Assembly: GCA_025928335.1 (NCBI GenBank)
Contig: JAICJQ010000022.1
Span: 1 to 36,012 of the forward strand
Direction: 5' to 3'
Source: Gemmatimonadaceae bacterium
GTDB taxonomy: Bacteria > Gemmatimonadota > Gemmatimonadetes > Gemmatimonadales > Gemmatimonadaceae
DNA length: 36,012 nt
The notes below the pieces were generated by a model. The model saw nothing but the letters and a program-made list of their open reading frames with translations. It was not told where the DNA came from and did no database searches. Positions 9,155 to 29,944 of the stretch are shown piece after piece. Numbering within the stretch: position 1 is the stretch's first letter; each line of letters starts with the position of its first letter. Position numbers and translations under genes: made by a program.

Positions 9155-11122
9155 ATGGCCGACACGAAAGCGTTGTTTACCCAACGGTTCGACGCAGCGC
9201 GTACCGCATTCACCAAGGGAGACGAGCCCGCCGCCGCGGAGTCCCTGCATTCGGCAATCGTGATTGCGCGCAGCGATCCCAGTCTCCGACGGGAGCTCGC
9301 GTCCGCCCTTTTTCACCTCGGGAAACTGTCGCGGAAGTTCGGCCGCGCAGGGGAAGCCGAAGCGGAGACGCTTCTCACTGAAGCGCTTTCCATCAGCGAA
9401 GGGCTCTTCGGCAGGGAAAACGCCGCGCTCGCGCCGCTGCTAAATGAGTTGGGCCGGCTGCACATTCATCGGTCGCAATACGCGGGCGCCGAGGGCGTCC
9501 TCGAACGTTTGCTCGCGATCGCACGGGCGAAGGGTGAGGAGAACGCCGATGTCGCCACCGCCCTCGCCGGCCTCGGAGTGGTGAAACGCAAACTCGGCGA
9601 TGACGCCTCGGCGGAAGCGCTGTTCAGAGATGCACTGCGCATTCAAGAAAAGATGCTCGAGCCGAGTCACATGGCGACCGTCGTCACGCTGGAGCACCTC
9701 TCTGAAACGTGCGCGGCACGTGGCAACTTCGACGAAGCGTTGGCGATGCGACGGCGCGCCCTGGCAACGCGCGAAGTGGCGTTGGGTCCCGGTCATGCAA
9801 CAGTGCAGGCCGCGCGATCGCGCGTCGCCGAGCTCGAACTGCAGGCCGCCGTCGCGGCCGACACGGCGGCGGCTGCCGCGGCGAAGGCCGCCAGGGGTGC
9901 GATAGCCACTCCGGCCTGGTTGAAGCGCGTGCCGGCCCCCGCCGCCGTTACGCCATCGACGACTCTCCCATCACCGATCGACTCGAAGAAGCTGGACTTT
10001 CTCGATGAGCCTGAGCCGCGGGTGCTTCGCCCTGCGGCTCTTTCACGCGACCGCGCAATGACGCCGACCGTCACCGCCGCGGTGGCAGCCGCCTCGCTGA
10101 TGGCATCTTCGATACAGATGCCGTCTACATCGCAGATCGTCATCCCCCGACCCGAAAGCGCTCGTCCGTCCGAGAGCATCACCGCTCCCGAATCGGGCGT
10201 CGAGTCCGTTCTCGCGGCCGTCGCGCACAGCGATGTCGCGAGCGCCCCTGCTGCGCTTGACGACTCGCTATCCACACTCGCACCGGTCGAGGCGGATTGG
10301 CTCGCACCGACGGGCAATAAACGAACGACCATGTACGTATCCGCTGGAGTGGCCGCGGTCACGATCGCGATTGCGGCGCTGCTGGTGTTACGTCCGCGCG
10401 CCGGCAGCGGCGCGGATCCTGTGTCCGCAAAGAGTGGCGCCGCGCAGCGCACCACCGTCGCCGGCGCTCCGGTCGCCAAGGCGCCGGCGACCGTCACCGG
10501 ATCGACCCTAGCCGGCCCCGCCGCGGTGGTCGCCGCAGCCCGCCCTGACTCGGCCCACTCAGCGAATGCCACGCTGCCGCCTACCGCTTCCGCAGTTCAG
10601 CCAGAGGAGCATGCCTCGGAGGCCGCGTCGCCGGAGCTCCGCTTGCCCCGCGTCAATGTTCACGTCCGCCCGATAAATGTCCCGAGCATCACGGTCCCGA
10701 CGATCACGGTGACGCCGACCGGAGACTCGATCACGCGTTCGGCAACGGAGCGGTCGCGCACCGACACCGATCGAACTGGAACGCGGGAGAGAGGTTCACT
10801 CCCCATGTCGCTGGACCTCGGGACCGCGGTCACACCTGCCAGGATTGTCGGGCGCGCGCCGGAACCGGGCTTCCCCGACGCGCTGCTCCGCTCGGGTCGC
10901 AGCGATGGACAGGTCGTCGTGCGCTTTATCGTGAACGAGTTCGGGAGAGTCGACGTCGCGACCATGATCGTGGAGCGATCGGATGACGAACTGTTCACGG
11001 CTGCCGTGCGCGACATCCTGCCCGACTTCCGCTTTGAGCCGGCACGCACCCGCGCCCCGGAATCAAGGCCGGTCGCCTCGTGGGTGAGCGTGCCCTTTCG
11101 GTTTACGACGAAGAAGAAATGA
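9155..11122 (+). CDS. TPR protein with one membrane helix and TonB C-terminal domain, paralogue A
   Basis: The 655-residue protein has three parts. Residues about 1-230 are tetratricopeptide repeats of the kinesin-light-chain type (ALFHLGKLSRKFGRAGEAE, APLLNELGRLHIHRSQY, VATALAGLGVVKRKLGDD, LEHLSETCAARGNFDEALA), expected to bind protein partners. An Ala/Pro/Ser-rich linker leads to one membrane helix at about 393-415 (MYVSAGVAAVTIAIAALLVL). After a second disordered linker, residues about 565-655 form a TonB_C domain (PEPGFPDALL, GQVVVRFIVNEFGRVD, FRFEPARTR). This predicts a cytoplasmic TPR sensor or scaffold joined to a periplasmic TonB-like end. No exbB/exbD or receptor gene is nearby, so true energy transduction is unproven. 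The next gene is a full-length paralogue of the same length. Confidence 0.85.
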   Translation: MADTKALFTQRFDAARTAFTKGDEPAAAESLHSAIVIARSDPSLRRELASALFHLGKLSRKFGRAGEAEAETLLTEALSISEGLFGRENAALAPLLNELGRLHIHRSQYAGAEGVLERLLAIARAKGEENADVATALAGLGVVKRKLGDDASAEALFRDALRIQEKMLEPSHMATVVTLEHLSETCAARGNFDEALAMRRRALATREVALGPGHATVQAARSRVAELELQAAVAADTAAAAAAKAARGAIATPAWLKRVPAPAAVTPSTTLPSPIDSKKLDFLDEPEPRVLRPAALSRDRAMTPTVTAAVAAASLMASSIQMPSTSQIVIPRPESARPSESITAPESGVESVLAAVAHSDVASAPAALDDSLSTLAPVEADWLAPTGNKRTTMYVSAGVAAVTIAIAALLVLRPRAGSGADPVSAKSGAAQRTTVAGAPVAKAPATVTGSTLAGPAAVVAAARPDSAHSANATLPPTASAVQPEEHASEAASPELRLPRVNVHVRPINVPSITVPTITVTPTGDSITRSATERSRTDTDRTGTRERGSLPMSLDLGTAVTPARIVGRAPEPGFPDALLRSGRSDGQVVVRFIVNEFGRVDVATMIVERSDDELFTAAVRDILPDFRFEPARTRAPESRPVASWVSVPFRFTTKKK

Positions 11123-11199
11123 GATAGGTCGTGTGCGGGAAGGCAGACGGGCGTCGCAGGGGCGGTTGTACAGAGTCCCCTGCGAGAGTTCTCGGAGAG

Positions 11200-11222
11200 C
11201 GGCCGCCTTGAATGGGCGGCCG
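11200..11222 (+). terminator. Candidate terminator after TPR-TonB paralogue A
   Basis: An 8-bp GC-only stem (11200-11207 with 11215-11222) closes a seven-base loop (TTGAATG) and is followed within five bases by ATTTT. It lies 78 bases after the stop codon. Confidence 0.5.
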
Positions 11223-11231
11223 TCGCATTTT

Positions 11232-11258
11232 CCCGGGCGGGTTTCGAGCTCGCGACCT
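11232..11258. repeat. tRNA 3'-end-like relic, possible old attachment site
   Basis: These 27 bases match the T-arm/acceptor part of the tRNA-Lys gene at 15643-15669 in 24 positions and in the same orientation, starting CCCGGGCGGG and ending CGCGACCT. The rest of a tRNA is absent; the following bases form no seven-base anticodon loop. A tRNA-tail repeat 4.4 kb from the intact tRNA fits one end of a former integrated element, but other tRNA genes share this T-arm, so this is inference. The remaining intergenic bases 11259-11465 hold nothing I recognise. Confidence 0.4.
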
Positions 11259-11465
11259 GGAGTAAGAGATCGAATACTCATTTGAGTTCCACCATCAGTA
11301 AGTCATCGTCGATGTGTGTCCCGAGTGCTGTGTCGCACGCTGCGTTTGATCGGCAGGACTGATTGCCGTGGATTCGGCGCGGATCGCTGAAGTACCCTAA
11401 GCGAGCTCAGGAGTGGCGCTGTGCGCGCCGATGAGAGTGACCTTTCTCGTACAGCCCCGTCCGCT

Positions 11466-11640
11466 CGTTTCGCGGAATCGCCTTCGATCGTCCGAACGAC
11501 GCGATCATTGCGCTGCGCTCAATAGCCCGAGGCATCGCGTCACATGGCAACGCGCCATTTGCGCTGACCATTCGACAGACACGGCTTCGGACCGCCCGGC
11601 TCGATGTATTGCTGGCGACTCACTCCAAACCGGTATGCAC
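11466..11640 (+). repeat. Conserved upstream block, copy B
   Basis: This is the counterpart of 8981-9154: same order and nearly the same length (175 versus 174 bases), diverged by scattered substitutions. It ends directly at the aligned ATG of the second TPR-TonB gene. Conservation outside coding sequence suggests a shared promoter or regulatory region. Confidence 0.75.
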
Positions 11641-13608
11641 ATGGCTGACACCAAAGCGTTGTTTACCGAACGGTTCGATGCAGCGCGCACTGCATTCACC
11701 AAGGGGGATGAACCCGCCGCCGCCGAGTCCCTTCACGCCGCAATCGCTGTGGCGCGCACTGACCCCAGTCTCCGGCGCGAGCTCGCGTCCGCCCTTTTCC
11801 ATCTCGGGACGCTCTCGCGGAAGTTCGGCCGGGCGGGGGGAGCCGAAGCGGAGCCGCTCCTCACCGAAGCGCTTTCCATCAGCGAAGGGCTCTTCGGCCG
11901 GGAACACGCCGCACTCGCCCCGCTGCTGAACGAGTTGGGCCGGCTCCACATCCAACGGTCGCAATACGCGGGGGCCGCGGACGTCCTCGAACGTTTGCTC
12001 GCGATCGCACGGGCCAAAGGCGAAGAGACTGCCGATGTCGCCACGGCCCTTGCCGGCCTCGCCGTTGTGAAACGCAAACTCGGCGACGACGCCTCGGCGG
12101 AAGCGCTGTTCAGAGATGCATTGCGCCTTCGAGAGAAACTGCTCGAGCCGAATCACGCGGTGACGGTCGCCACGCTGGAGCACCTCGCTGATACGTGCGC
12201 GGCACGCGGCAACTTCGACGAAGCGTTGGCGCTGTTTCGACGCGCCCTGACGGCGCGCGAGGTAGCACTGGGTCCCGGCCATTCTACGGTGGAGGTCACG
12301 CGGTCGCGGGTGAACGAGCTCGAACTGCAGGCCGCCGTCGCCGACTACACGGCGGTGGCTGCTGCCGCGAAGGCCGCCAGGCCCGAGATGCCTACTCCGG
12401 CGGGGTTAAAGTCGGTGCCCGACTCGGCCGCCGCGTTCAAGCGGGTGCCGGACGTGCCCGTCGGTACGCTATCGGCGATTGTGCCATCGCCGATCAATTC
12501 GAAGAAGCTGGATTTCCTCGATGAGCCTGAGCCGCGGGTGCTTTTCCCAGCCGCGCTTGCACGTGCACGCGGGAAGACGCCGCCGGCCACCGCTGCGGTG
12601 GCGGCCGCCCCGGTGATCGCACCTTCGATAGAGATACCGTCTGCTTCCCACATCCCTATCTCGCCGTCCGAAAGCGCTCCTCCGTCCGAAGTCGTCTCCG
12701 GTCTCGAATCAAACGTCCCGCATCGCGACGCGGTGCTCGCGGATGTCGCGCACAGCAGCGTCGCCACTGACGACACTGCGCTTCGCGACTGGCGATCCAC
12801 GATCGAACCGGTCCAAGCCGATTTGACCGAGTTGGCGCGCAGGCAAAGCACGGTGTTCTATGCATCCGTTGGAGTGGCCGCGTTTGCGATCGTGGGGCTA
12901 CTGGTGTTGCGCCCACGCGCCGGCGTTGGCGCCCCCGCCTCCACAGCGATGGTGGTTGCGCAAGGCACCGCCGGCGGTCCCGTCGTGGCCCCCGCGCTCA
13001 CGAAGACTGGTTTCACGGCAACGGGCGGAGCGGCCATGGTGAACGCAACACTAGCCAACTCGCGCCGCTCCGCGAGCGCGAGTCCCGCCCCCGCCCAGCC
13101 AGAGAAGCATGCGCCGGAGAGCGCTCCATCAGCGCCCCGCCTGCCACGCATCGAAGTTCAGATGCGCCCCATAAAAATTCCGAACGTCGGGGTCCCGAGC
13201 ATATCAACGCCAAGCGTCGACGCGATCATGCAGTCGGCGACAGAGCGGCAGCGCGCGTCCGACAGTGGTCCGACAGTCCCGACGCCGTCAGCGGTGGAAA
13301 GACCGGAGGTCGAGAAACCAGTCATCCCTGCCAGGATCATCGGGCGCGTGCCGGAGCCAACGTTCCCCGAGGCGCTCCGCTCGAGAAAACGCGAAGGAGA
13401 AGTCGTCGTCCGTTTCATTGTGAACGAGCTCGGGACCGTCGACGTCGCGAGCATGATCGTGGAGCGATCGGATCACGATCTGTTCACGGAGGCCGTGCGC
13501 GAGATCCTACCGCGCTTCCGCTTCGAGCCCGCCCGCACGCAGCCACCGGAATCGAAGCCGGTTGCCAGGTGGGTGAGCATCCCGTTTCGGTTTGCGACCA
13601 AACAATAA
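11641..13608 (+). CDS. TPR protein with one membrane helix and TonB C-terminal domain, paralogue B
   Basis: From ATG at 11641 the product has 655 residues, exactly the length of paralogue A, and aligns with it from MADTKALFT onward. TPR repeats fill about 1-230, a membrane helix lies at about 405-425 (ASVGVAAFAIVGLLVLRPRA), and TonB_C covers about 565-655 (PEPTFPEALR, GEVVVRFIVNELGTVDVASM, FRFEPARTQ). The frame is open back to 11413, but that part corresponds to the non-coding upstream block of copy A, so it is excluded; ATG at 11635 (adding Met-His) is an alternative. The TPR and TonB parts are more alike than the linkers, as expected when both ends are under selection. The two genes are tandem, in the same direction, and each appears to have its own promoter region. 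Confidence 0.85.
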   Translation: MADTKALFTERFDAARTAFTKGDEPAAAESLHAAIAVARTDPSLRRELASALFHLGTLSRKFGRAGGAEAEPLLTEALSISEGLFGREHAALAPLLNELGRLHIQRSQYAGAADVLERLLAIARAKGEETADVATALAGLAVVKRKLGDDASAEALFRDALRLREKLLEPNHAVTVATLEHLADTCAARGNFDEALALFRRALTAREVALGPGHSTVEVTRSRVNELELQAAVADYTAVAAAAKAARPEMPTPAGLKSVPDSAAAFKRVPDVPVGTLSAIVPSPINSKKLDFLDEPEPRVLFPAALARARGKTPPATAAVAAAPVIAPSIEIPSASHIPISPSESAPPSEVVSGLESNVPHRDAVLADVAHSSVATDDTALRDWRSTIEPVQADLTELARRQSTVFYASVGVAAFAIVGLLVLRPRAGVGAPASTAMVVAQGTAGGPVVAPALTKTGFTATGGAAMVNATLANSRRSASASPAPAQPEKHAPESAPSAPRLPRIEVQMRPIKIPNVGVPSISTPSVDAIMQSATERQRASDSGPTVPTPSAVERPEVEKPVIPARIIGRVPEPTFPEALRSRKREGEVVVRFIVNELGTVDVASMIVERSDHDLFTEAVREILPRFRFEPARTQPPESKPVARWVSIPFRFATKQ

Positions 13609-19435: not shown

Positions 19436-20893
19436 TCATTGGTTCGTCACCGACGTCGCCGGCATCACCGCCGGCGGCTTCCATGTTCCATTGATCACCG
19501 CGTCGCCCGGCCAATACATCCGCAGCATCAGCACGAATGGCCCCGACGGCGATGGAAGCCAGTTCTTCTCTCTCGCCAACCCCGGACTGTTGCGCTGGAT
19601 GTAGAGGTCCAGCGAACCGTCTGGATTGTATGTCACCGGCGACTGGGTCGGACTGATCTGATACCGGTGGATCGGGTTCGAAACGAAGAAGAAGTGCTGG
19701 TCATACATCGTCACGGACCAGAATCCCTTCACCGGCGGCTGCTGGTCCTTCGGGAAGTGCAGCACATAGCTCTGCGACCCGTCGAGCGCCTCTCGCGACC
19801 CATCGGTCATCGTCACCGGATAGATCGCATCCTGTGGAAGGTTGGCCCCGAGGCCGAAGTACGCGGCATATGCGCGACGATCGTAGTCCGTTCCGTATTC
19901 GCCGAGGTCGGTGGAGTACTGCCACCCATTCACGTTGGGCACCAGCGTGCTGTACCCCACGACGCGTTGCAGCGCGCGGCGCGGCAGCGTTTGTAGAATG
20001 ACGCTCGCATCGGGGCCGAGCTTTCGCGCGTCGAATGTTCGGCCCGGCACGATCCCGATGCTCGCCATTCGGGCCACGATCGCTGAATCCGCCTCCGCCG
20101 GCGGATTCTCTTTCATCAGCATCGCGAGACGATTGAAGAACGTCGTCGCGTCGAGCCGATTGACCTGGTCGCGCACGCTCGTCTCCATATCGACCGCTGG
20201 GTCGACGCGGCCCGCCGGCGGCGCGTACTCCTTGCCGAATGCGCTGAGCGGCACCAGCGAGTACTGACGCTGCAGCTGATGCACGGCGTCCAGATCGTTG
20301 GGCGTTTCCTGCGCGAACGTGCGGCCGACGATCCAGACGAGGTTGGTCGGTGCCTTTATGACTTCTGCGTCGGGAACATCGACGGATCCATTCCAGTCGG
20401 GTCCAACGACCACGTAGCGCTGTACAGCCGTTCCGGTCGTGCGCGTGCCCGGCGACGCGAACACGTTCGTCCACGCGTCGAGCATCGGCATGAGATAGTA
20501 GCGTCCATGCTCATCCGGCAGCGACAACACATACGGCCCGGCGCTCAGGTCGAGCCAGGCCGCCGAGTACAACGTGTTCGCGTTCGGCGCCGTCACGTCT
20601 CGGAACGATGGGTCCGGGTACGACGGCATGTTGGCGAACTGGCCCATCGGAGCGTGCTTTGCTCCAGCGCGCGACGCATTCGTCGCCACTCGGCGCGTCT
20701 GGTCCATCGTGATGAGCGGATAAGCGTAGATGTATGCGTCCATTGCGACCGCGTCGGGGTCGAAGACGTTGCCGTCCGCTTCCGCCTTCGCCTTTCGGCA
20801 GCTCGCGACGGCGCTCAGCGAGGCCAACGCAACGGCGGCCGCGACGACTGTTCGTGCTCGAGCGCGCGATGAGCGCGGCTGTGTTCGTGGCAT
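19436..20893 (-). CDS. DUF1254/DUF1214 domain lipoprotein
   Basis: The 485-residue protein has a signal peptide ending SAVASC, a lipobox with Cys 32. DUF1254 follows (AMDAYIYAYPLITMDQTRRV, PNANTLYSAAWLDLSAGPYV, YYLMPMLDAWTNVFASPG), then a linker and DUF1214 (DGSREALDGSQSYVLHFPKD, GFWSVTMYDQHFFFV, LDLYIQRNSPG, NWLPSPSGPFVLMLRMYWP). The family is widespread in the periplasm of Gram-negative bacteria; no enzyme activity is established. It lies 94 bases downstream of qhpE on the same strand and could share its transcript or have its own promoter; no obvious terminator separates them. It is not a known part of qhp clusters. Confidence 0.88.
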   Translation of the reverse strand: MPRTQPRSSRARARTVVAAAVALASLSAVASCRKAKAEADGNVFDPDAVAMDAYIYAYPLITMDQTRRVATNASRAGAKHAPMGQFANMPSYPDPSFRDVTAPNANTLYSAAWLDLSAGPYVLSLPDEHGRYYLMPMLDAWTNVFASPGTRTTGTAVQRYVVVGPDWNGSVDVPDAEVIKAPTNLVWIVGRTFAQETPNDLDAVHQLQRQYSLVPLSAFGKEYAPPAGRVDPAVDMETSVRDQVNRLDATTFFNRLAMLMKENPPAEADSAIVARMASIGIVPGRTFDARKLGPDASVILQTLPRRALQRVVGYSTLVPNVNGWQYSTDLGEYGTDYDRRAYAAYFGLGANLPQDAIYPVTMTDGSREALDGSQSYVLHFPKDQQPPVKGFWSVTMYDQHFFFVSNPIHRYQISPTQSPVTYNPDGSLDLYIQRNSPGLAREKNWLPSPSGPFVLMLRMYWPGDAVINGTWKPPAVMPATSVTNQ

Positions 20894-20987: not shown

Positions 20988-21671
20988 TCAACCGGCGAGC
21001 GAAGTTACGGAGACGCCGCTCTCGAGGGCGCGCGCGATAAATCCGCACACGTTTGCGACCGCGAACGAGATGCCGGACAGGTTGCGCTCTCGGGGTAGGT
21101 CGCCGATCGGTCGCGGAAAAATCGACGCGGTGGCGCACACGCCGCCGTGCTCGAGCCGCAACTCGAGTTCATCCCGCCCACATTGGGCGTCAGCGAGCAC
21201 GCCGAGCACACCGTCGAGCGAACCGGGCAAGAGCATGACACCCTCCGTCTCGCGCGGCGCCACGACGAGCACACGGCTTTCAGCGGCTGCGCGCGCGGCA
21301 GCGACGAGCCGTTCGCGATGCGCTGTATTCGCTGTGCCCAAGCTGAGATTGATAAGGTCGGCGCCGGCCGCGGCTGACCATTCGATCGCCTGCGCCAACA
21401 CCTCGGCGTTCGTCGTCAGATGGCGATGAAAGAGCTTCACGGGAATCAAGCGCGCATTGGGCGCCTTCTCGTGGATTGCCGCCGCCACCGCGGTGCCGTG
21501 ACCGATTCGATCGATCGCGTCGTCGCTCTCACTCGAGAACGAGCAGCCGGCGAGCACGGTCGCTCCGGCGAGATGCGGATGATCCGCGTGAATGCCGCTG
21601 TCGAGTACCGCGATGGTCACGCCGCGCCCGCTCCGATCGGCGAACGGTGCATCGCTCAATCGGAACCGCAC
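20988..21671 (-). CDS. qhpE: Subtilisin-like (S8) protease, predicted QhpC leader peptidase
   Basis: This 227-residue compact S8 protease has no signal peptide. The triad is Asp 24 in VTIAVLDSGIHADHP, His 58 in IGHGTAVAAA, and Ser 202 in SGISFAVANV. INLSLGTAN matches the substrate-binding strand. The segment where subtilisins carry the oxyanion-hole Asn (usually AAGN) reads VLVVAPRETEG, so that Asn appears to be replaced. In characterised qhp systems QhpE removes the N-terminal leader of the cross-linked gamma subunit; its small size, lack of export signal and place two bases after qhpF and within the cluster support the same role here. It is the last qhp gene of the run. Confidence 0.85.
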   Translation of the reverse strand: MRFRLSDAPFADRSGRGVTIAVLDSGIHADHPHLAGATVLAGCSFSSESDDAIDRIGHGTAVAAAIHEKAPNARLIPVKLFHRHLTTNAEVLAQAIEWSAAAGADLINLSLGTANTAHRERLVAAARAAAESRVLVVAPRETEGVMLLPGSLDGVLGVLADAQCGRDELELRLEHGGVCATASIFPRPIGDLPRERNLSGISFAVANVCGFIARALESGVSVTSLAG

Positions 21672-21673
21672 GG

Positions 21674-23416
21674 TCAGTGAACGATCTGCAGGCGTGTCGC
21701 GAACAGCTCAGCGAACGATGAATGCGTCCCGGCGAGCGTCGAGGCCGGCGCCGCGTGTTCCTTGATCCCGCCGTTCTCCAGGATGAGGATTCGGTCGGCG
21801 CGACGCGCCAGCTCCTGCCGGTGCGTGATGATGATCGTCGTTCGGCCGAACATGGCTGCCTCATATCCGGACGCGACCTGCGCTTCCGTCGCCGGATCGA
21901 GCGCTCCAGTTGCTTCGTCGAGCACGAGGACCGCCGGATTCGCCAACAATGCCCGCGCCACTGCGACGCGCTGCCGCTCGCCGGCCGACAAGCTGCGTCC
22001 ACGTTCCCCGGCGCTCGTCGCGAGTCCCTCGGGCAAGCGAGCGAGCAGCGATTGCAGCCCGGCGCGCTCCGCGGCCTCGTGGACTTCGGCGTCGGTCGCA
22101 TTCGGCCGCGCATAGCGAATGTTCTCGGCGATCGTCGCGTTGAACACGAATGGATCCTGATCGACGACCAACACCCAGTCGCGCAGCTCGCGAAGCCGAA
22201 GCGAGCGAACGTCGATACCGTCGAGCAGGACGCGGCCGCTCGCCGGATCGAGCTGACGGACCAGCAGCTCGGCGATCGTCGATTTGCCCTCGCCGCTCTT
22301 TCCGACGATCGCCACTCGCTCGCCGGGAGAGATGTCGACCGACACGCGATCGAGCACGCCGTCGCCGCGGCCGAACGAATAACTCACGTCGTCGAGCGTC
22401 ACGCGCCCGCGAACACTCTCGAGCGAGATCGGTGTCGGCGTCTCCACGACATCGGGCGTCGCGTCGAGAACTTCGCTCACTCGGCGGAGCGACACCCGCG
22501 CCGACGCGAAGCTGGCGTACAATCCCATCAGCGATTGGATCGGCCAGACGAGACGCATCTGGTACGCAATGAAGGCGACGAGCGTGCCCATCGTGATCGA
22601 ATGATCGATCACCCGCATGCCGCCGACGAAAAACACGGCGCCGCTTCCCGCGGCGAGAAGCAACCCCGGCACTCCACCGGAGAGATAGGTGAGCCGCCGC
22701 ATCTTCATCAAGGCGTCGATGAAGCGATCGTTGTGCTCCCGGAAATGCTGCGCCGCGCGATCCTGCGCGTTGAATCCGACGATCACGCGCATGCCGAGCA
22801 GCGACTCGATGAGAAAGCTTCCGACGTCCGCGCTGCGGTCGCGGACCCCGGTCATCGCGCCGTCGAGACGCGAACGATACCGCACGAGCGCCCACAACGC
22901 CGCCGGCAAGATCGCGAAGCTGACGAGAAAGAGCGCGCGGTCGAGTCGGAAGAGAATCACAATGCTCCCGACGAGGAACACCATGCTGCCGAGCCACGAC
23001 AGCGCGATCTCGGCGGCCACGCGCTGAATTTCGGCGATGTCCGAGTTGAGGCGCGCCGCGATCTGTCCGACCGGCATCGTCGCGTAGAATCGCGGTGACA
23101 GACGGTGCAGTTGGCGGAAGAGCGCCAGTCGCATGTCGAACAGGATGTCCGCCGACGCGCGCGTGTAGATCAAACCGCTCACGACATTGAGCACGAACGT
23201 GCCGATCGTGAGCACCGCGAACTGTCCGATGACGGCGACGAGTGCCGCGCGGTCCCGCCCGATCAGGGCGCGATCGATGATGATGCGCGACAGGTACGGG
23301 ATATAGAGCGCCGCCACCGTGCTGGCGAGCGCGAAGAGGACGACGATCGACAGCCGTCGCCACTGCGGCGCCACGTGCCCCAGCGCGCGGCGCAGATCCT
23401 TGTCCAACAGCGGCAC
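21674..23416 (-). CDS. qhpF: ABC exporter for the modified QHNDH gamma subunit
   Basis: The 580-residue half-transporter has about six membrane helices in residues 20-310 and an ATPase domain at about 335-560. Walker A is GKSGEGKST (372-380), the signature is LSAGERQRV (476 onward), Walker B is VLVLDE (496-501), and the H-loop His is in IIITHRQELA. It lacks an N-terminal C39 peptidase domain, consistent with leader cleavage by the separate QhpE. In studied systems QhpF carries cross-linked QhpC across the inner membrane. The start is seven bases after the qhpB stop, and qhpE starts two bases after this gene ends, so the genes are tightly co-transcribed. General lipid-exporter homologues look similar; context decides the name. 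Confidence 0.85.
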   Translation of the reverse strand: MPLLDKDLRRALGHVAPQWRRLSIVVLFALASTVAALYIPYLSRIIIDRALIGRDRAALVAVIGQFAVLTIGTFVLNVVSGLIYTRASADILFDMRLALFRQLHRLSPRFYATMPVGQIAARLNSDIAEIQRVAAEIALSWLGSMVFLVGSIVILFRLDRALFLVSFAILPAALWALVRYRSRLDGAMTGVRDRSADVGSFLIESLLGMRVIVGFNAQDRAAQHFREHNDRFIDALMKMRRLTYLSGGVPGLLLAAGSGAVFFVGGMRVIDHSITMGTLVAFIAYQMRLVWPIQSLMGLYASFASARVSLRRVSEVLDATPDVVETPTPISLESVRGRVTLDDVSYSFGRGDGVLDRVSVDISPGERVAIVGKSGEGKSTIAELLVRQLDPASGRVLLDGIDVRSLRLRELRDWVLVVDQDPFVFNATIAENIRYARPNATDAEVHEAAERAGLQSLLARLPEGLATSAGERGRSLSAGERQRVAVARALLANPAVLVLDEATGALDPATEAQVASGYEAAMFGRTTIIITHRQELARRADRILILENGGIKEHAAPASTLAGTHSSFAELFATRLQIVH

Positions 23417-23423
23417 GTTCCCT

Positions 23424-24515
23424 CTACGGACGCATGGCTGGCACGATGACCACGTTGGTCATGTCCGCGCCGAGATTGACTTGGCCGAGATGCTTGAAGT
23501 CGGTCGTCGAGTAGCGGTCGATCGTCGAGCCGGCGGTCGTGATATAGAGCTGCGTGCCGTTCGAGCTGACGACGAGCCCCATCCGCGGTCGGCCCGGAAA
23601 TTCGGTCTTGCCGACCACGCGTCGTGAATCGAGATCGAACGTCCAGAACTGGTAGTTGCCGACTTCGCTGTGGATGCCGTAGGCCTTCTTGCGGTCGGGT
23701 GACAGCCGGAAGCTCACGGCCTGGCTCGGGCCGAGCGAATAGAAGTCCAACTGGCGGTTCACGAGATCCATCCGTGCCACGCCCATCTGCGTGCGGTGGT
23801 TCACGGGATCATTCGTCCGGAACAGGCCAGTGTAGAACCCCGGCTCCTCGTACACGTCGTATGGCAAGCCAAAGTTGATGCGGCCGAGTCCCTCCTCGAA
23901 CAACGTCTTCGAGATCTCCCAGCGGTCGACTTCCTTCAGTGACACCGCGTCGTAAATCAGGACGTCGTCCTGCGTGAAGAAGTACATCAGCTTCCCATCG
24001 GGCGAGAAGACGATCTGCGCTCCCTCACGCTCCTCGCCGCGCGGCCACGGAATCGTGTCCGTCACGCGGCGCGTCGCGAGGTCGTAGCGCACCAGCGTCG
24101 GCCCCCGCACCTCGTAGCGATCGGCGTGCTCCTGATACGCCTTCACGAGCAGGATCGCGAACCGCTCCTTCGGATCGAGGCTGAACCCCCACATCCGAAC
24201 CTTCGTGCTGTCTGTCGACAGCGTGAACACGCCGCTCGACTTTTTCGTGGCGAGATCGACGATCTCGACCTTCTCGTTACCCGGGTCGGTGAGATAGAGA
24301 TGCTTGCGATCGAACGACAGCGAGATGTCGGGGATGCCGAGCTGCGACTTGATCGTGTCCTTCACCTTCATCGTCGCCTCGTCGATCACCAGCACCTGCC
24401 GCGCGTACGTGCCGACGTACAGCGTACCGGTGCCACCGGACGGGACACTCTGACCAGCCGCTACAGCGATTGGCCACGCTACCGCTGTCATTCTGAGCGA
24501 AGCGAAGAACCTCAT
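23424..24515 (-). CDS. qhpB: QHNDH beta subunit (seven-bladed beta-propeller)
   Basis: The 363-residue product contains repeated YVTN/WD40-like blades across residues 30-360 (GTLYVGTYARQVLVIDEAT, SLSFDRKHLYLTDPG, VFSPDGKLMYFFTQDDVLIY, LVVSSNGTQLYITTAG), the fold of the periplasmic QHNDH beta subunit, which packs on the gamma subunit next to the quinone. ATG 24515 forms an ATGA overlap with the qhpC stop; a longer open frame reaches 24995 but would run through qhpC and qhpD and is rejected. The first ten residues (MRFFASLRMT) are encoded by a dispersed repeat, yet together with AVAWPIAVAAG they make a plausible short signal peptide. The insertion seems to have replaced or rebuilt the original N-terminus. 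Confidence 0.88.
   Translation of the reverse strand: MRFFASLRMTAVAWPIAVAAGQSVPSGGTGTLYVGTYARQVLVIDEATMKVKDTIKSQLGIPDISLSFDRKHLYLTDPGNEKVEIVDLATKKSSGVFTLSTDSTKVRMWGFSLDPKERFAILLVKAYQEHADRYEVRGPTLVRYDLATRRVTDTIPWPRGEEREGAQIVFSPDGKLMYFFTQDDVLIYDAVSLKEVDRWEISKTLFEEGLGRINFGLPYDVYEEPGFYTGLFRTNDPVNHRTQMGVARMDLVNRQLDFYSLGPSQAVSFRLSPDRKKAYGIHSEVGNYQFWTFDLDSRRVVGKTEFPGRPRMGLVVSSNGTQLYITTAGSTIDRYSTTDFKHLGQVNLGADMTNVVIVPAMRP
24486..24515 (-). repeat. Dispersed repeat unit forming the start of qhpB
   Basis: The plus-strand sequence TTCTGAGCGAAGCGAAGAAC, with its flanks, is a version of a short motif I know as extremely common in intergenic DNA of many soil and environmental bacteria. Its other frames give the tell-tale peptides RFFASLRMT and LRFAQNDS. 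Here it contains the qhpB ATG and the first ten codons. Confidence 0.6.
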
Positions 24516-24844
24516 GGGAACACCAAGTCGATCTTCCGCCAGTCCTTCTGCGCCGAGGCGCACTTCGCGGTCCAATCGGGCGCGTGGTTGTAGAGATCGG
24601 GCACGTGGGCTGGCCAGAAGCACGTGATGTGGCAGTCGAACAGATCGCGCTCCACCGGTTGGCAAAGGCCGGCCGTGCCTCCGTTCGAATCCACCTCCCA
24701 TCCCGGCGAGAACACGAACGAGCAGCCGAGGGGGACGTGCGGTCCCGTGGGACCACCCGGGCCCTGTTGCAGCGCGACGACGTCGTTCTGCAGCACACCC
24801 TCGATCCGCTGCGCCTTCTGGTTGATCGATTTGAGATGTCTCAT
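24512..24844 (-). CDS. qhpC: QHNDH gamma subunit precursor with CTQ and thioether cross-link sites
   Basis: The 110-residue peptide is the substrate of the maturation machinery. An N-terminal leader without a Sec signal (MRHLKSINQKAQRIEGVLQN) is followed by a Cys-rich core. Against the published gamma-subunit numbering, a constant offset of 34 places every cross-link residue: Cys41-Glu50 (7-16), Cys61-Asp67 (27-33, Asp being the catalytic base), Cys75-Asp83 (41-49), and Cys71-Trp77 (37-43), which form cysteine tryptophylquinone. One further cysteine, Cys94, has no partner in that scheme. Catalysis occurs in the periplasm: the quinone oxidises primary amines and passes electrons to the alpha-subunit hemes. 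The gene overlaps qhpD upstream and qhpB downstream, each by ATGA. Confidence 0.95.
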   Translation of the reverse strand: MRHLKSINQKAQRIEGVLQNDVVALQQGPGGPTGPHVPLGCSFVFSPGWEVDSNGGTAGLCQPVERDLFDCHITCFWPAHVPDLYNHAPDWTAKCASAQKDWRKIDLVFP

Positions 24845-26256
24845 GACAGGTGGGTAAGGAAGTCAGGCCGCTTTGTCGCCAACGTTCCGTACACTTCCAG
24901 ACAGGTATTCGTCCACGCGCGGATCCACTCGCAGTAATGCAGGTTCGGCTGCGTCGTCGTGCCGTACCGCGTGTGCGCCTCGTGATAGCAGCCACCGGCG
25001 CAGAGCGGGCGCGCCCAACAGGTGGAGCAGTCCGTCTTGTTGTCGATGTGATGTGTCTCGAGGAACGTCGCCTGCGCGGCGTGATCGACGCCGCTGAACA
25101 CGCTGCCCAGCTTGTGGCTGTCCGATCCCGCGAACCGATGGCAGAGTGCCACGTCGCCGTCCGTTGCCACGCCGAGCAGACCGAAGCCCGCGCCGCACGG
25201 ATGCGACTTACTCATTCCTTTGTGAATTTCCTCGAGCGTGTCCCGCACATTCGAGAAGCCGTGGCGCCGGCCGGCGATCGCTTCACTCAGATACTCGGCG
25301 GCAAGCGTCTGGAAGCCGGCGAGGAGCTGCTGGAATCCCAGATCCTCGATCGCGTACTCGCGCTGCCACGACGTCGTCACCGGCGCGAAACCGACCTCCC
25401 AGAAGCCGATCTCCTCGAACAGGTGCCGGTAGATCGAGACGACATCCAGATTCTGGCCCGTCAGCGTCACGCGCGCGCCGACAGGCTTCCGCCGGTGCCG
25501 CGCCAGCAAATCCTTGATGCGGGGCAGGATGATGTCGTAGCTGCCCATGCCATTCGAGAACACGCGGAACTTGTCCTGCTGCTCGCGCGCTCCGTCGATC
25601 GACACCGTGACGCCGACGTCGTTCTCGATGAACCAGTCCACGATCTCCTCGCGCAGCAGCGTCGCGTTCGTCGTCAGACTCGCGTTCACCTGCTTGCCGA
25701 GCTCCGCGCCGCGTTGCTTCGCGTAGGCGAGCGCCGACTTCAACATCTTGAAGTTGAGCAGCGTCTCGCCGCCAAAGAACGTGAGATTCACACTCGGCGA
25801 ATCGCCCGCTTCGGCGAACATGAAATCCACCGACTGTTTCGCCGTCGCTTCGTCCATGAATCGCGGCTTGGTCCCGCTCTCGACGATCCGGTCCTCGCCG
25901 TACTCGTAGCAGTACCCGCACGACAGATTGCACTTGCTCGTCACGTTGAGCACGAGCGTCTGGAGCGGAATGCTGCGCTTCGACTTGACGGAGGGGGGCG
26001 CGACCGGCGGCGCGACGACGCTATGGATCGCGCGCACGCCGAGCAGCTCGTCGATCGACGAGCGTACTTCGTCGCCGCTCCACCGCGCGCCGAGCGACTC
26101 GGCGAGCTCATTCGCCGTGCGGTCGCCGGTAGCGAGCCGCTCGAGGACGGCGTGCGACACGTCGTCGAGCTCCACGACCGCGGCCGACGGGACGAGATAC
26201 AGGTATCTCGCGTCGCCGCCCGAAAACGAGTGATACTCACCGCGACGAAGCATCAT
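24841..26256 (-). CDS. qhpD: Radical SAM/SPASM thioether-forming enzyme for QhpC
   Basis: The 471-residue enzyme makes the Cys-to-Asp/Glu thioether bonds in QhpC. Residues about 8-80 resemble a PqqD-like peptide-recognition (RRE) domain. The radical SAM cluster motif is CNLSCGYC (Cys 109, 113, 116), followed by LTFFGGETLLNF and VTVSIDG of the TIM barrel. The C-terminal SPASM region has cysteines at 354, 372, 410, 413, 419, 423, 442 and 452 for auxiliary iron-sulfur clusters (CGAGFGLLGVATDGDVALC, CSTCWARPLCAGGC). Its ATG overlaps the qhpA stop and its TGA overlaps the qhpC start, tying enzyme and substrate synthesis together. The cytoplasmic location agrees with modification before export. Confidence 0.95.
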   Translation of the reverse strand: MMLRRGEYHSFSGGDARYLYLVPSAAVVELDDVSHAVLERLATGDRTANELAESLGARWSGDEVRSSIDELLGVRAIHSVVAPPVAPPSVKSKRSIPLQTLVLNVTSKCNLSCGYCYEYGEDRIVESGTKPRFMDEATAKQSVDFMFAEAGDSPSVNLTFFGGETLLNFKMLKSALAYAKQRGAELGKQVNASLTTNATLLREEIVDWFIENDVGVTVSIDGAREQQDKFRVFSNGMGSYDIILPRIKDLLARHRRKPVGARVTLTGQNLDVVSIYRHLFEEIGFWEVGFAPVTTSWQREYAIEDLGFQQLLAGFQTLAAEYLSEAIAGRRHGFSNVRDTLEEIHKGMSKSHPCGAGFGLLGVATDGDVALCHRFAGSDSHKLGSVFSGVDHAAQATFLETHHIDNKTDCSTCWARPLCAGGCYHEAHTRYGTTTQPNLHYCEWIRAWTNTCLEVYGTLATKRPDFLTHLS

Positions 26257-28028
26257 GGCTGCGTTTGCCAGGGGACGAAGCGCACGTACAGCGGCACCGT
26301 GACGACGAGCAACGCCCGCGCCTTGAGCATTTTCGCATTCTTGCCGGGCGGCGTGTACGAGGCCACCGCCCAGACGTCGCCGACATTGTTCCGGCTCGAG
26401 CTGCGCTTGGGATTCGGCCCGTCGAGGCTCGGCGTGAACAAGCCATTCTGGTCGAGCGCGCCGACGAACTTCACATCATCGTCGTCGTACGTCACACCGT
26501 ACTCCTCGAGGTTCCATTTTGCCGGTACGCGTCCGATCTCGAGATCGTCGTCCGTGTCCGATTTGCCGTCCGGACCATTCCAGTACGCCATCGCATCGAA
26601 TTGCTGGAGCTGTTTCGGGAACACGGCGCCGCCCACGCGCGCTAACCCGGCGAGCGGGACGACCTTGATGCGATCGATCTTGTCGAAGACCACCGCCGCG
26701 TCGCGGAGCGATGCGCCGGACGCGTAGAGATCGCGCTTCCCGACGGCCGCGGCCGAATCCACGCTCAGCCGCACGGTAATTGAATCCGCCGTCGCGCGGA
26801 CGACATTGTCCACCGTCACGCCAGGCCCGAAGTCGATCGCATTCGCCGCGGCGCTTGGCAGATTCGCGCCAAAGATCGTCACGTCCTGACTACGCGAACC
26901 AACGTGCAGTGCTCGTGGGGCGATGCCCGCGATCACCGGGCTGCCCGACACACGACGCGCCGTCACGTCCATGCCAATTTCATCATAGCCGCCCTGGAAC
27001 CAGCGGCCCGACATCTCGTCCCAACCAGGCTCGACGAACATCACTTCGCGTAAGCCGACGCTGTCGCGTGCGCGCTGCGCCGGATCGGTCGATCGGCCGC
27101 GCCATTGAAAACCGGTGTAGACGATCGATTTGCCGGTGCGGTGGACGACGGCGCCGCCGTCAGCGTATCGATAGGTCGTCTGCGTCGTGAATTCGCCGTC
27201 GCTCGCGCCTTTCGCGATCGTGACACGGCCGTAGAAGGCACCGCGCCCCGGCTCGTTGCCGCTCAGCAGCCACGTGCCCTCGAGGTGCGGCGTGCGCATC
27301 GTCGCCGACCACGCCGTCCATTCCGGCGTGCGGAGCGGGAAGACGCGGGACAGATGGTTGACCGCCAACTCCATCGGATGCAGTTGCGGAACACCGCTGT
27401 CGTTCACCGCGGGACCGAAGCGACGAAACGCCTGGAAGTCCGCGTCGGGATACAGCGCGCGATGCGTCGCGAGCAGAAGATTCCACTCGTCGCGTGTGCG
27501 CCGCTGCGAAATGACACGACCCATCGAGTGACAGGCGCGGCACGCCGTCTCGGTGCGCGCGTCCGCCGTGTAGCGGTAATCGATCATGCGACGTTCCGGC
27601 TCGAAGCGCGCGGGCTTCATCTCCGCCGGCGCCAAGCCTTGGTGGTCGCTCAAATATCGGACGATGGTCCGTGCGTCCTTCGGATCGAGGTCGAGATGGT
27701 GGAGCCCGACCATGCGACGCACCGACATCTCCCACCCTTCGGGCGTCTTCCGTTCGAATGAGATGCGCTGCACGACGCCGGCACTATCCTGCTTATGGCA
27801 CCCGATGCAGTTGGCTTTGATCGCGCGCTCGGCGATCGGAAATCCATGCGTCGTGTCGGGCGCCGCGCCTCCGGCACGACCGCCTCCCGCCCCGGCACCT
27901 CGGCCGCCGCCGCCGCGCTGGGCCTGCGCAGCAGCAAGTGGAAGCAGCGTCGACGCGAGCAGCACAACGCCGAGTGCAGCACGACTCCCCCTTCCGCCGC
28001 GGCCCTCTGCAAACCTTGCACGCGACAT
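26253..28028 (-). CDS. qhpA: QHNDH alpha subunit, di-heme cytochrome c
   Basis: The 591-residue protein has a signal peptide (ALGVVLLASTLLPLAAAQAQ), then a Gly/Arg-rich linker (about 38-55). Domain 1 is a di-heme cytochrome c with CIGCH (74-78) and CRACH (163-167). The rest (about 190-591) forms the beta-sheet domains of the QHNDH alpha subunit (FQWRGRSTDPAQRARDSVGL, IFGANLPSAAANAIDFGPGV, VTYDDDDVKFVGALDQNG). The hemes take electrons from the CTQ of the gamma subunit and pass them to a cytochrome or copper protein. GGAG lies ten bases before the ATG. Its stop overlaps the qhpD start. It begins 55 bases after qhpG ends. The Gly-rich N-terminal linker seems unusual for the family. Confidence 0.95.
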   Translation of the reverse strand: MSRARFAEGRGGRGSRAALGVVLLASTLLPLAAAQAQRGGGGRGAGAGGGRAGGAAPDTTHGFPIAERAIKANCIGCHKQDSAGVVQRISFERKTPEGWEMSVRRMVGLHHLDLDPKDARTIVRYLSDHQGLAPAEMKPARFEPERRMIDYRYTADARTETACRACHSMGRVISQRRTRDEWNLLLATHRALYPDADFQAFRRFGPAVNDSGVPQLHPMELAVNHLSRVFPLRTPEWTAWSATMRTPHLEGTWLLSGNEPGRGAFYGRVTIAKGASDGEFTTQTTYRYADGGAVVHRTGKSIVYTGFQWRGRSTDPAQRARDSVGLREVMFVEPGWDEMSGRWFQGGYDEIGMDVTARRVSGSPVIAGIAPRALHVGSRSQDVTIFGANLPSAAANAIDFGPGVTVDNVVRATADSITVRLSVDSAAAVGKRDLYASGASLRDAAVVFDKIDRIKVVPLAGLARVGGAVFPKQLQQFDAMAYWNGPDGKSDTDDDLEIGRVPAKWNLEEYGVTYDDDDVKFVGALDQNGLFTPSLDGPNPKRSSSRNNVGDVWAVASYTPPGKNAKMLKARALLVVTVPLYVRFVPWQTQP

Positions 28029-28083
28029 CAGTCGTTCGCTCCGGTGAGAGTGCGGAGACGAATACGGCGTCGGCGACTACCTG

Positions 28084-29550
28084 TCAAGCAAAACTGAGCA
28101 TCTCGAGGCCGACCAGCGCCGAGAGCGCCCCGAGAAAATCGGGGAGGGGAACGACGCTCGCCGCCCGCGAGTATGCGTCGTACAGGTCCGGCACCTGCTC
28201 GTGGTGGGGAGCGAGTCGGGTGATGGCCAGGAGGTCCACGTTGCGGCAGTAGCGAACACCTTGCGGAATCGCTGCCGATGCCAGGTGCTGCTCCAAAATC
28301 ACCCGATTGCCACGCACCACGGCCCGTTCGACGACGCGCAACGAATCGCCGATGCGGAGGTGCATGGCCGGCCGACGCTTCAATTCCTCGAATGCGTCGC
28401 GCACGCGGTGGTCGCCACGCACCACCGCGGCGTCGAGCTCGAAATCGGCGGCGGCGATTTCCTCCGTCCGGGCATGCCAGAACGCGCTGTCATGCGCCCC
28501 GGAGGCGTCTTGCGCTATCCGCGCCGCCTGAGTTTGCAGCTCCGCGTACATGCCATGCTCGCGCTCCTCGAACAGATCGCGCGCCGCGCCAGCCAACGAT
28601 CTCTCGTCCAGCGCCGTGTTCGCAACGACGGCCGCGAGCCACGCGGAGGCCAGAGCCTTCTTGACGCCGAACGACGACAGCGGATCGATGAACGACGCCG
28701 CGTCACCAACGAGGAGCAACCCGTCGTCGCTGACCCGATGCGACCGATACGGCGACGCGTCGCACCCCCAACACGGTTCGACCAACGTCGCGTCGCGCAC
28801 CAACTCGGCAATGAGTCTTGTTCGCGAAAGCTCCGCGCGATACGCGCGATCGAGTGCGTCGCGCGTTGGGACGTCGGTCTGACGCGGGTCGAGCATCACC
28901 GTGACGTATCGGCGGCTCAACGAGACCGGCACCGACCAGGCCCATCCATCGTCATAGCTCTCGACGAGGGTGTGCGTGGCGTATGCGTCGTCGGCCCACG
29001 CATCGTTTTCCCATACGCCGACGACGGCTGTCGTGCGTGCCGCTTGTTCCGGTCGGCGATACCCGCCTCGCGCAACGACGCCGGCGCGTCCGCTGCAATC
29101 AAGCACCCAACGCGCCTGGCACGTCGTTGGTCCGTCGTTCGAATCGTAGTTCACGACCCAGCTGTCGCCATGCCGCTTCGCTCCACGCACCGTCGCGCCG
29201 CGAACAACGAACGCGCCCGCTGCCTGCGCAGAATCGCCGAGCAACTCGTCGAATCGCGCACGGTCCACCTGGTACCCGGCGCCGCCGGCGAAGGGCTCTG
29301 ACCTCCGATCCTCGCGGCCCCACTGCACTGTGTTCCCGAGCGCGCGTACGAATCCGGCGGCGTCGATCACGCTGCGTACGCCAAGAGCGTCGAGCAGCTT
29401 TGTGCAGCTCGGCGGAAGCGATTCGGCGATCGAACGCTTCGAGGCTGCGCGGGCGATCAGCACGACGCTGCGATCCCACTGCGCGAGCAACCGCGCTGCG
29501 GCCGCGCCTGCTGGTCCACCACCGATGACGACGACGTCGGCCGAGAGCAT
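28084..29550 (-). CDS. qhpG: FAD-dependent monooxygenase for CTQ biogenesis
   Basis: The 488-residue flavoprotein has an N-terminal FAD-binding motif (VVVIGGGPAGAAAARLLA), the region QVDRARFDELL, and the second FAD motif LLLVGDAASFIDPLSSFGVK, a layout shared with tryptophan halogenases and group A hydroxylases. In the characterised system QhpG hydroxylates the tryptophan of QhpC that becomes the quinone, acting on the already thioether-linked peptide. The C-terminal part (about 380-488) is helical and less conserved. Unlike the arrangement I recall in Paracoccus (A-D-C-B-E-F-G), here qhpG comes first. A good promoter sits right before the ATG. Its location in the cluster distinguishes it from an ordinary halogenase-like enzyme. 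Confidence 0.88.
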   Translation of the reverse strand: MLSADVVVIGGGPAGAAAARLLAQWDRSVVLIARAASKRSIAESLPPSCTKLLDALGVRSVIDAAGFVRALGNTVQWGREDRRSEPFAGGAGYQVDRARFDELLGDSAQAAGAFVVRGATVRGAKRHGDSWVVNYDSNDGPTTCQARWVLDCSGRAGVVARGGYRRPEQAARTTAVVGVWENDAWADDAYATHTLVESYDDGWAWSVPVSLSRRYVTVMLDPRQTDVPTRDALDRAYRAELSRTRLIAELVRDATLVEPCWGCDASPYRSHRVSDDGLLLVGDAASFIDPLSSFGVKKALASAWLAAVVANTALDERSLAGAARDLFEEREHGMYAELQTQAARIAQDASGAHDSAFWHARTEEIAAADFELDAAVVRGDHRVRDAFEELKRRPAMHLRIGDSLRVVERAVVRGNRVILEQHLASAAIPQGVRYCRNVDLLAITRLAPHHEQVPDLYDAYSRAASVVPLPDFLGALSALVGLEMLSFA

Positions 29551-29889: not shown

Positions 29890-29899
29890 CCGGCGACGA

Positions 29900-29944
29900 A
29901 ACGGGGTCAGACTCCGTTTTTTTTTTTCGGAGTCTGACCCCGTT
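29900..29944. terminator. 17-bp hairpin with T11 loop, dispersed-repeat derived
   Basis: Bases 29900-29916 and 29928-29944 are perfect inverted repeats containing ACGGGGTCAGACTCCG, separated by eleven T residues (29917-29927). The position between the convergent stops at 29889 and 29961 suits a bidirectional terminator. GGGGTCAGAC is the core of a dispersed repeat seen again at 33.8 kb. Confidence 0.65.

Follow-up and report, generated by a model that had tools for sequence, protein, structure and literature searches.

A seven-gene qhp operon predicted to encode quinohemoprotein amine dehydrogenase in the Gemmatimonadota

The window analyzed here, a 36,012-nucleotide stretch of contig JAICJQ010000022.1 from a Gemmatimonadaceae bacterium (assembly GCA_025928335.1), is almost certain, to judge from its sequence, to carry a complete operon for quinohemoprotein amine dehydrogenase (QHNDH). 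The genes qhpG-A-D-C-B-F-E form a compact block on the minus strand (window 29550–20988), in which the junctions A/D, D/C, and C/B are 4-bp overlaps and the remaining gaps measure 2–55 bp, a layout as in a single operon. The identification follows from four products (QhpG, QhpA, QhpD, and QhpC) passing their family cut-offs, from matches of the alpha and gamma subunits to PDB entries, from the profile and fold of the beta subunit, from the invariance of the cross-link residues, and from the conservation of gene content and gene order in two relatives of the same genus. The set is complete and collinear with that of these relatives, and the cross-link, heme, Fe-S, and protease residues are conserved. 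All seven genes had been predicted on one strand in this order, and their positions were confirmed; the motifs listed in the original prediction (CxxCH pairs, CxxxCxxC, SPASM cysteines, the D-H-S triad, and the ABC motifs) are all seen in the translations.

Family calls were made with Pfam and with NCBIfam equivalog models, for which curated cut-offs are available. The gene qhpG (28084..29550, 488 aa), for a flavin-dependent peptidyl-tryptophan dihydroxylase, scores 251 bits against the QhpG model NF049967 (cut-off 240); its product keeps the GGGPAG and GDA motifs, and the residues aligning with QhpG Glu42 and the GW.W motif are conserved. The di-heme alpha subunit, which has a signal peptide, is encoded by qhpA (26253..28028, 591 aa; TIGR03908, 483 bits, cut-off 274). 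It contains all four Pfam domains of QHNDH alpha subunits, matches 1jmx_A in the PDB (E = 2e-73), and carries the heme sites CIGCH and CRACH, which are invariant in the alignment, with no further conserved cysteine. The radical SAM/SPASM thioether-forming maturase is the product of qhpD (24841..26256, 471 aa; TIGR03906, 543 bits, cut-off 453), in which CNLSCGYC (CxxxCxxC) and seven SPASM cysteines are conserved, and the gamma subunit precursor is that of qhpC (24512..24844; NF037958, 123 bits, cut-off 50). The profile-search E-values of 1e-145 for QhpA, 5e-163 for QhpD, and 4e-36 for QhpC exclude a chance match, and the alpha and gamma genes, whose placement outside the QHNDH families had been named as a possible outcome, both fall inside them. 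At the downstream end lie qhpF (21674..23416, 580 aa), for an ABC exporter of the processed gamma subunit with ABC_membrane and ABC_tran domains and with Walker A, LSAGE, and Walker B present, and qhpE (20988..21671, 227 aa), for an S8 leader protease (Peptidase_S8) with the catalytic triad D24/H59/S202.

Several observations weigh against the identification as a QHNDH operon. The divergent beta-propeller beta subunit encoded by qhpB (23424..24515, 363 aa) reaches 54 bits against TIGR03907, far under the cut-off of 223, and QhpE stays about 1 bit short of its model (NF049966, 163.9 bits, cut-off 165), with the Leisingera QhpE likewise just under at 162.7. Genes for an electron acceptor, an aldehyde dehydrogenase, or a regulator were not found adjoining the operon, and two same-genus genomes are without a gamma gene. 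The subunit-by-subunit profile check suggested at the outset succeeded for G, A, D, and C and fell short for B and E; no dedicated family model matched QhpF, whose synteny is shared with other qhpF loci.

The low score of QhpB and a null phmmer search of the PDB could have indicated an unrelated propeller, but this was ruled out by profile, hhalign, and Foldseek comparisons. The listed open reading frame (ORF; start 24995) is too long, and an ATG at 24515 that overlaps the stop codon of qhpC gives the fitting start. A profile built from 32 relatives matches 1jju_B and 1jmx_B across almost the full length, an hhalign comparison with five beta subunits of classical type reaches 99.9% across 312 columns, and Foldseek places 1jju_B and 1jmx_B at ranks 1 and 2 in the PDB for the AlphaFold2 model (pLDDT 89.7). 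By profile and predicted fold, the window protein is a divergent QhpB. The claim of a complete QHNDH biosynthesis cluster is supported. A dispersed genome-wide repeat, TTCGCTTCGCTCAGgATGAC, lies at the start of qhpB (window 24486–24509, minus strand) and provides early signal-peptide codons; it is found at 40 places in the genome at two or fewer mismatches and at none in the control. Of two loci from the same genus, one (L048) shows a related repeat, hairpin-like in form, at this junction, and the other (L049) lacks one.

The gamma subunit matches 1jmx_G and 1jju_C in the PDB. Its thioether pairs C41/E50, C61/D67, and C75/D83 and the residues C71/W77 of cysteine tryptophylquinone (CTQ) all align with the 1jju and 1jmx gamma chains, and these eight residues are invariant in every intact gamma (126 loci; 88 distinct sequences). 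We take the classical equivalents to be Cys7-Glu16, Cys27-Asp33, and Cys41-Asp49, with Cys37/Trp43 forming CTQ. With the P. pantotrophus QhpC leader as alignment reference (28 residues, ending EEVVA), the window leader would comprise residues 1–24 (24844–24773), and cleavage by QhpE would be expected after NDVVA at residue 24.

The enzyme most likely follows the scheme of its Paracoccus and Pseudomonas counterparts (mechanism from PMC7876137), from which we infer its biochemical steps, substrate range, and periplasmic location. QhpD would bind precursor QhpC by its leader and form the three thioethers C41-E50, C61-D67, and C75-D83, and QhpG would next dihydroxylate W77. The leader would be cleaved off by QhpE, probably after DVVA24, and the gamma subunit exported by QhpF; with CTQ (C71-W77) completed, gamma would join QhpA, bearing the hemes, and QhpB, the propeller. 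The resulting QHNDH is expected to oxidize primary amines to aldehyde and ammonia in the periplasm, with electrons passing via the two c-type hemes.

Several residues set the branch formed by Gemmatimonadota and Acidobacteriota apart from the classical enzymes. A fifth gamma cysteine, C95 (codon 24562–24560), is accompanied by Asp or Glu at position 106 in 122 of 122 loci, whereas in four classical loci position 95 is Ala and position 106 is Gln or Gly, and six further classical gammas (Paracoccus, Leisingera) all lack Cys at 95 and the C95/acid 106 pair; the classical gammas compared were taken only from plasmids and two PDB structures. In most of the branch, QhpD carries an extra cysteine, Cys452 (24903–24901), where classical QhpD has Gly, and this residue co-occurs with gamma Asp70 and with a residue other than Trp at gamma 76. 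The classical equivalent of gamma 76 (Trp42) lies in a hydrophobic pocket of QhpG in a docking model, so that a change at 76 would affect the maturation enzymes. Neither alpha nor beta subunits contain a conserved non-heme cysteine, which leaves C95 without a conserved disulfide partner in the complex.

These patterns leave some room for a variant QHNDH across this branch, in which QhpD would also use C95 (classical mature 61) for a fourth Cys-Asp/Glu thioether, with the acid at 106 (classical 72) or D101 (67) most plausibly as partner and Cys452 possibly involved; such an enzyme would be more heavily cross-linked than both solved QHNDH structures. It is favored by the joint occurrence of C95 and acid 106, by the missing disulfide partner, and by the extra cysteine of the maturase, but is on balance unlikely. 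The C95/D106 change is one event on the QhpD tree, and the pairing is therefore not independent evidence; D101 is present even where C95 is not, Cys452 is missing from QhpD of some C95-bearing loci (Acidobacteriota gamma types L082 and L110), the AlphaFold2 model of gamma (pLDDT 43) is too poor for C95-Asp distances, and a free thiol at C95 is equally possible. Because each change is a single event and L082 and L110 have C95 without Cys452, the evidence is at most suggestive.

A different departure from the classical scheme was seen in five Acidobacteriota genomes, in which a pair of U32 proteins resembling UbiV and UbiU stands at the place of QhpG in the qhp operon. The order is A-D-C-B-V-U-F-E at L136 (pair at 10610–12531) and L140 (10939–12892), A-D-C-B-V-U-E with F opposed at L113 (10639–12662), and D-C-V-U-F-E, without alpha or beta, at L112 (9901–11888) and L137 (9179–11163) of genomes G775 and G804; positions for L136, L137, and L140 are given with gamma on the plus strand. 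G775 and G804 also have a second locus, A-D-C-B (L111 and L138), with no G, E, or F beside it, and apparently either the maturation genes are shared between the loci or the L112 and L137 clusters make a separate gamma product. The D-C-V-U-F-E cluster of G775 lies near genes for methylmalonyl-CoA mutase and acyl-CoA synthetase.

The clusters with qhpD and qhpC but no alpha or beta (L112 and L137), together with the divergent beta subunit of the window, are what could suggest a drift away from amine dehydrogenation toward a system for gamma-like cross-linked peptides. For the window this is very improbable, as it has a four-domain alpha subunit with both heme sites, a beta subunit, and all gamma cofactor residues, and QHNDH remains the preferred reading.

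The U protein is UbiU-like at 89–96 bits, well under the UbiU cut-off of 440, and matches Pfam Peptidase_U32; cysteines 190, 197, 209, and 254 are present in all five U proteins, the spacing of 190 and 197 being that of UbiU C169/C176. The V proteins, again in five of five cases, have four cysteines (64, 235, 254, and 258 in L113 numbering) in a pattern near the C-Xn-C-X12-C-X3-C of UbiV. UbiU and UbiV are 4Fe-4S enzymes that hydroxylate without O2 (PMC6747719), and it is plausible that the pair would hydroxylate the CTQ tryptophan independently of O2, providing an O2-free route to CTQ. This variant is probably more novel than the window itself. Close U32 homologues (E < 1e-115) were found in 7 of 16 gamma-bearing genomes tested. 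Genomes that have QhpG or a short QhpG-like gene are generally without one (G750, G641, G625, G774, G414, G000, and G255); a U32 gene occurs together with QhpG in G516 and with a weaker QhpG-like match elsewhere in G659 and G907, that of G907 being 65 kb away from gamma. In Acidobacteriota and Novosphingobium, the short QhpG-like flavoproteins (~335 aa; 64–69 bits to the QhpG model where scanned) are encoded either next to qhpE or in the stretch separating qhpB from qhpF (L114:5060-6076, L115:13224-14228, L124:13175-14203, and L077:13601-14566), and in Novosphingobium the protein fills the B–F slot, the same slot as the U32 pair.

The assignment of the host to the Gemmatimonadota is supported. 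In the QhpD tree, the window groups beside two same-genus relatives inside the Gemmatimonadota (99/96) and is fully supported at both the genus and the family level; the Acidobacteriota neighbor this branch, and the classical proteobacterial sequences form a separate one. The same-genus genomes G313 and G255 carry an operon identical in gene content and order, with QhpD identities of 78–81%. The Gemmatimonadota-like host that had been proposed thus agrees with both the tree and the relatives, and an origin of the contig in Acidobacteriota or Proteobacteria through contamination or mis-binning, which the fragmented source assembly (4.5 Mb, 281 contigs, 79% complete) might invite, is exceedingly improbable in view of these two results and of the contamination estimate of 1.31%.

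Members of the gamma family were found in 75 of 395 sampled Gemmatimonadota genomes (20 of 138 genera) and in 28 of 396 Acidobacteriota genomes. QHNDH, an amine dehydrogenase with a cofactor built post-translationally on a tryptophan of its own, is accordingly a regular trait of the Gemmatimonadota, present in about a fifth of the sampled genomes and apparently inherited within the phylum. The qhp operon has been reported from more than 1300 species (Oozeki et al. 2021, PMC7876137); a literature search, with most subscription papers outside its reach, found no description of QHNDH in Gemmatimonadota. One Novosphingobium plasmid is placed among the Acidobacteriota in the QhpD tree, which suggests transfer. 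Since the branch groups with Acidobacteriota and not with the classical proteobacterial enzymes, it offers a deep sister branch for the evolution of CTQ maturation and raises two questions, namely the role of the invariant fifth gamma cysteine and a possible O2-free hydroxylation of the CTQ tryptophan by U32 proteins in Acidobacteriota. In G227 (L065:9828-11229), gamma is intact only in its C-terminal part and is accompanied by beta, with no alpha and no QhpD above cut-off; this cluster is probably a decaying qhp remnant.

At the borders of the window operon, no sigma-70-type site scored, and the standing of qhpG as promoter-proximal gene is unproven. Between rpiB and qhpG (window 29898–29940) lies a terminator-like inverted repeat whose arms, ACGGGGTCAGACTCCG...CGGAGTCTGACCCCGT, flank an A/T run. 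A DUF1254/DUF1214 protein is encoded 94 bp downstream of qhpE (window 19436–20893, minus strand); it was rejected as an operon member and was found in none of the related loci. No regulator-domain protein was found among the window ORFs scanned, which agrees with the stated absence of qhpR, although the rest of the genome was not searched for it.

The gene order is not in itself a finding, and the window adds a good further example to a known system and shows a few changes specific to its lineage. The original prediction treated both the order and the extension to this phylum as new, but G-A-D-C-B-F-E on one strand is usual in Gemmatimonadota loci and frequent in Acidobacteriota, and is exactly that of the Leisingera plasmids NZ_CP081042, NZ_CP041161, and NZ_CP109791 (QhpG and QhpE confirmed for L081); arrangement, order, and strand of qhp genes are also reported to vary (Oozeki et al. 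2021, PMC7876137). Nor did the order A-D-C-B-E-F-G-R given there for Paracoccus hold, as P. pantotrophus has G divergent upstream, then A-D-C-B-E-F and an opposed AraC gene. Other Gemmatimonadota and Acidobacteriota loci usually share the order of the window and its gamma and QhpD signature, although in some a short QhpG-like protein or the U32 pair replaces QhpG, or the genes are split over tens of kb. The latter was seen in genus g70 (L034, L041, L055, and L060), with unrelated genes between; an alpha-less QHNDH was considered there and rejected, since these genomes do contain alpha and QhpD, in most cases ~40 kb or less away on the same contig, so that the clusters are only split. The Leisingera plasmids share order and strand with the window but differ in having adjacent AraC-type/HTH and aldehyde dehydrogenase genes, a classical gamma (no Cys95, Trp-Trp), and a classical QhpD. 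With the QHNDH of Paracoccus and Pseudomonas (1jju, 1jmx; PMC7876137), the window shares all seven structural and maturation genes, alpha domains I–IV with two hemes, CTQ, the three thioether pairs, and the radical SAM maturase, flavin-dependent Trp dihydroxylase, leader protease, and exporter. It differs from them in its one-strand gene order with no qhpR alongside, in a beta subunit only ~20% identical, in the extra gamma Cys95 and acid 106, in Phe for the Trp beside the CTQ Trp and Asp for the Gly before the CTQ Cys, in the extra QhpD Cys452, and in a probable leader of 24 rather than 28 residues.

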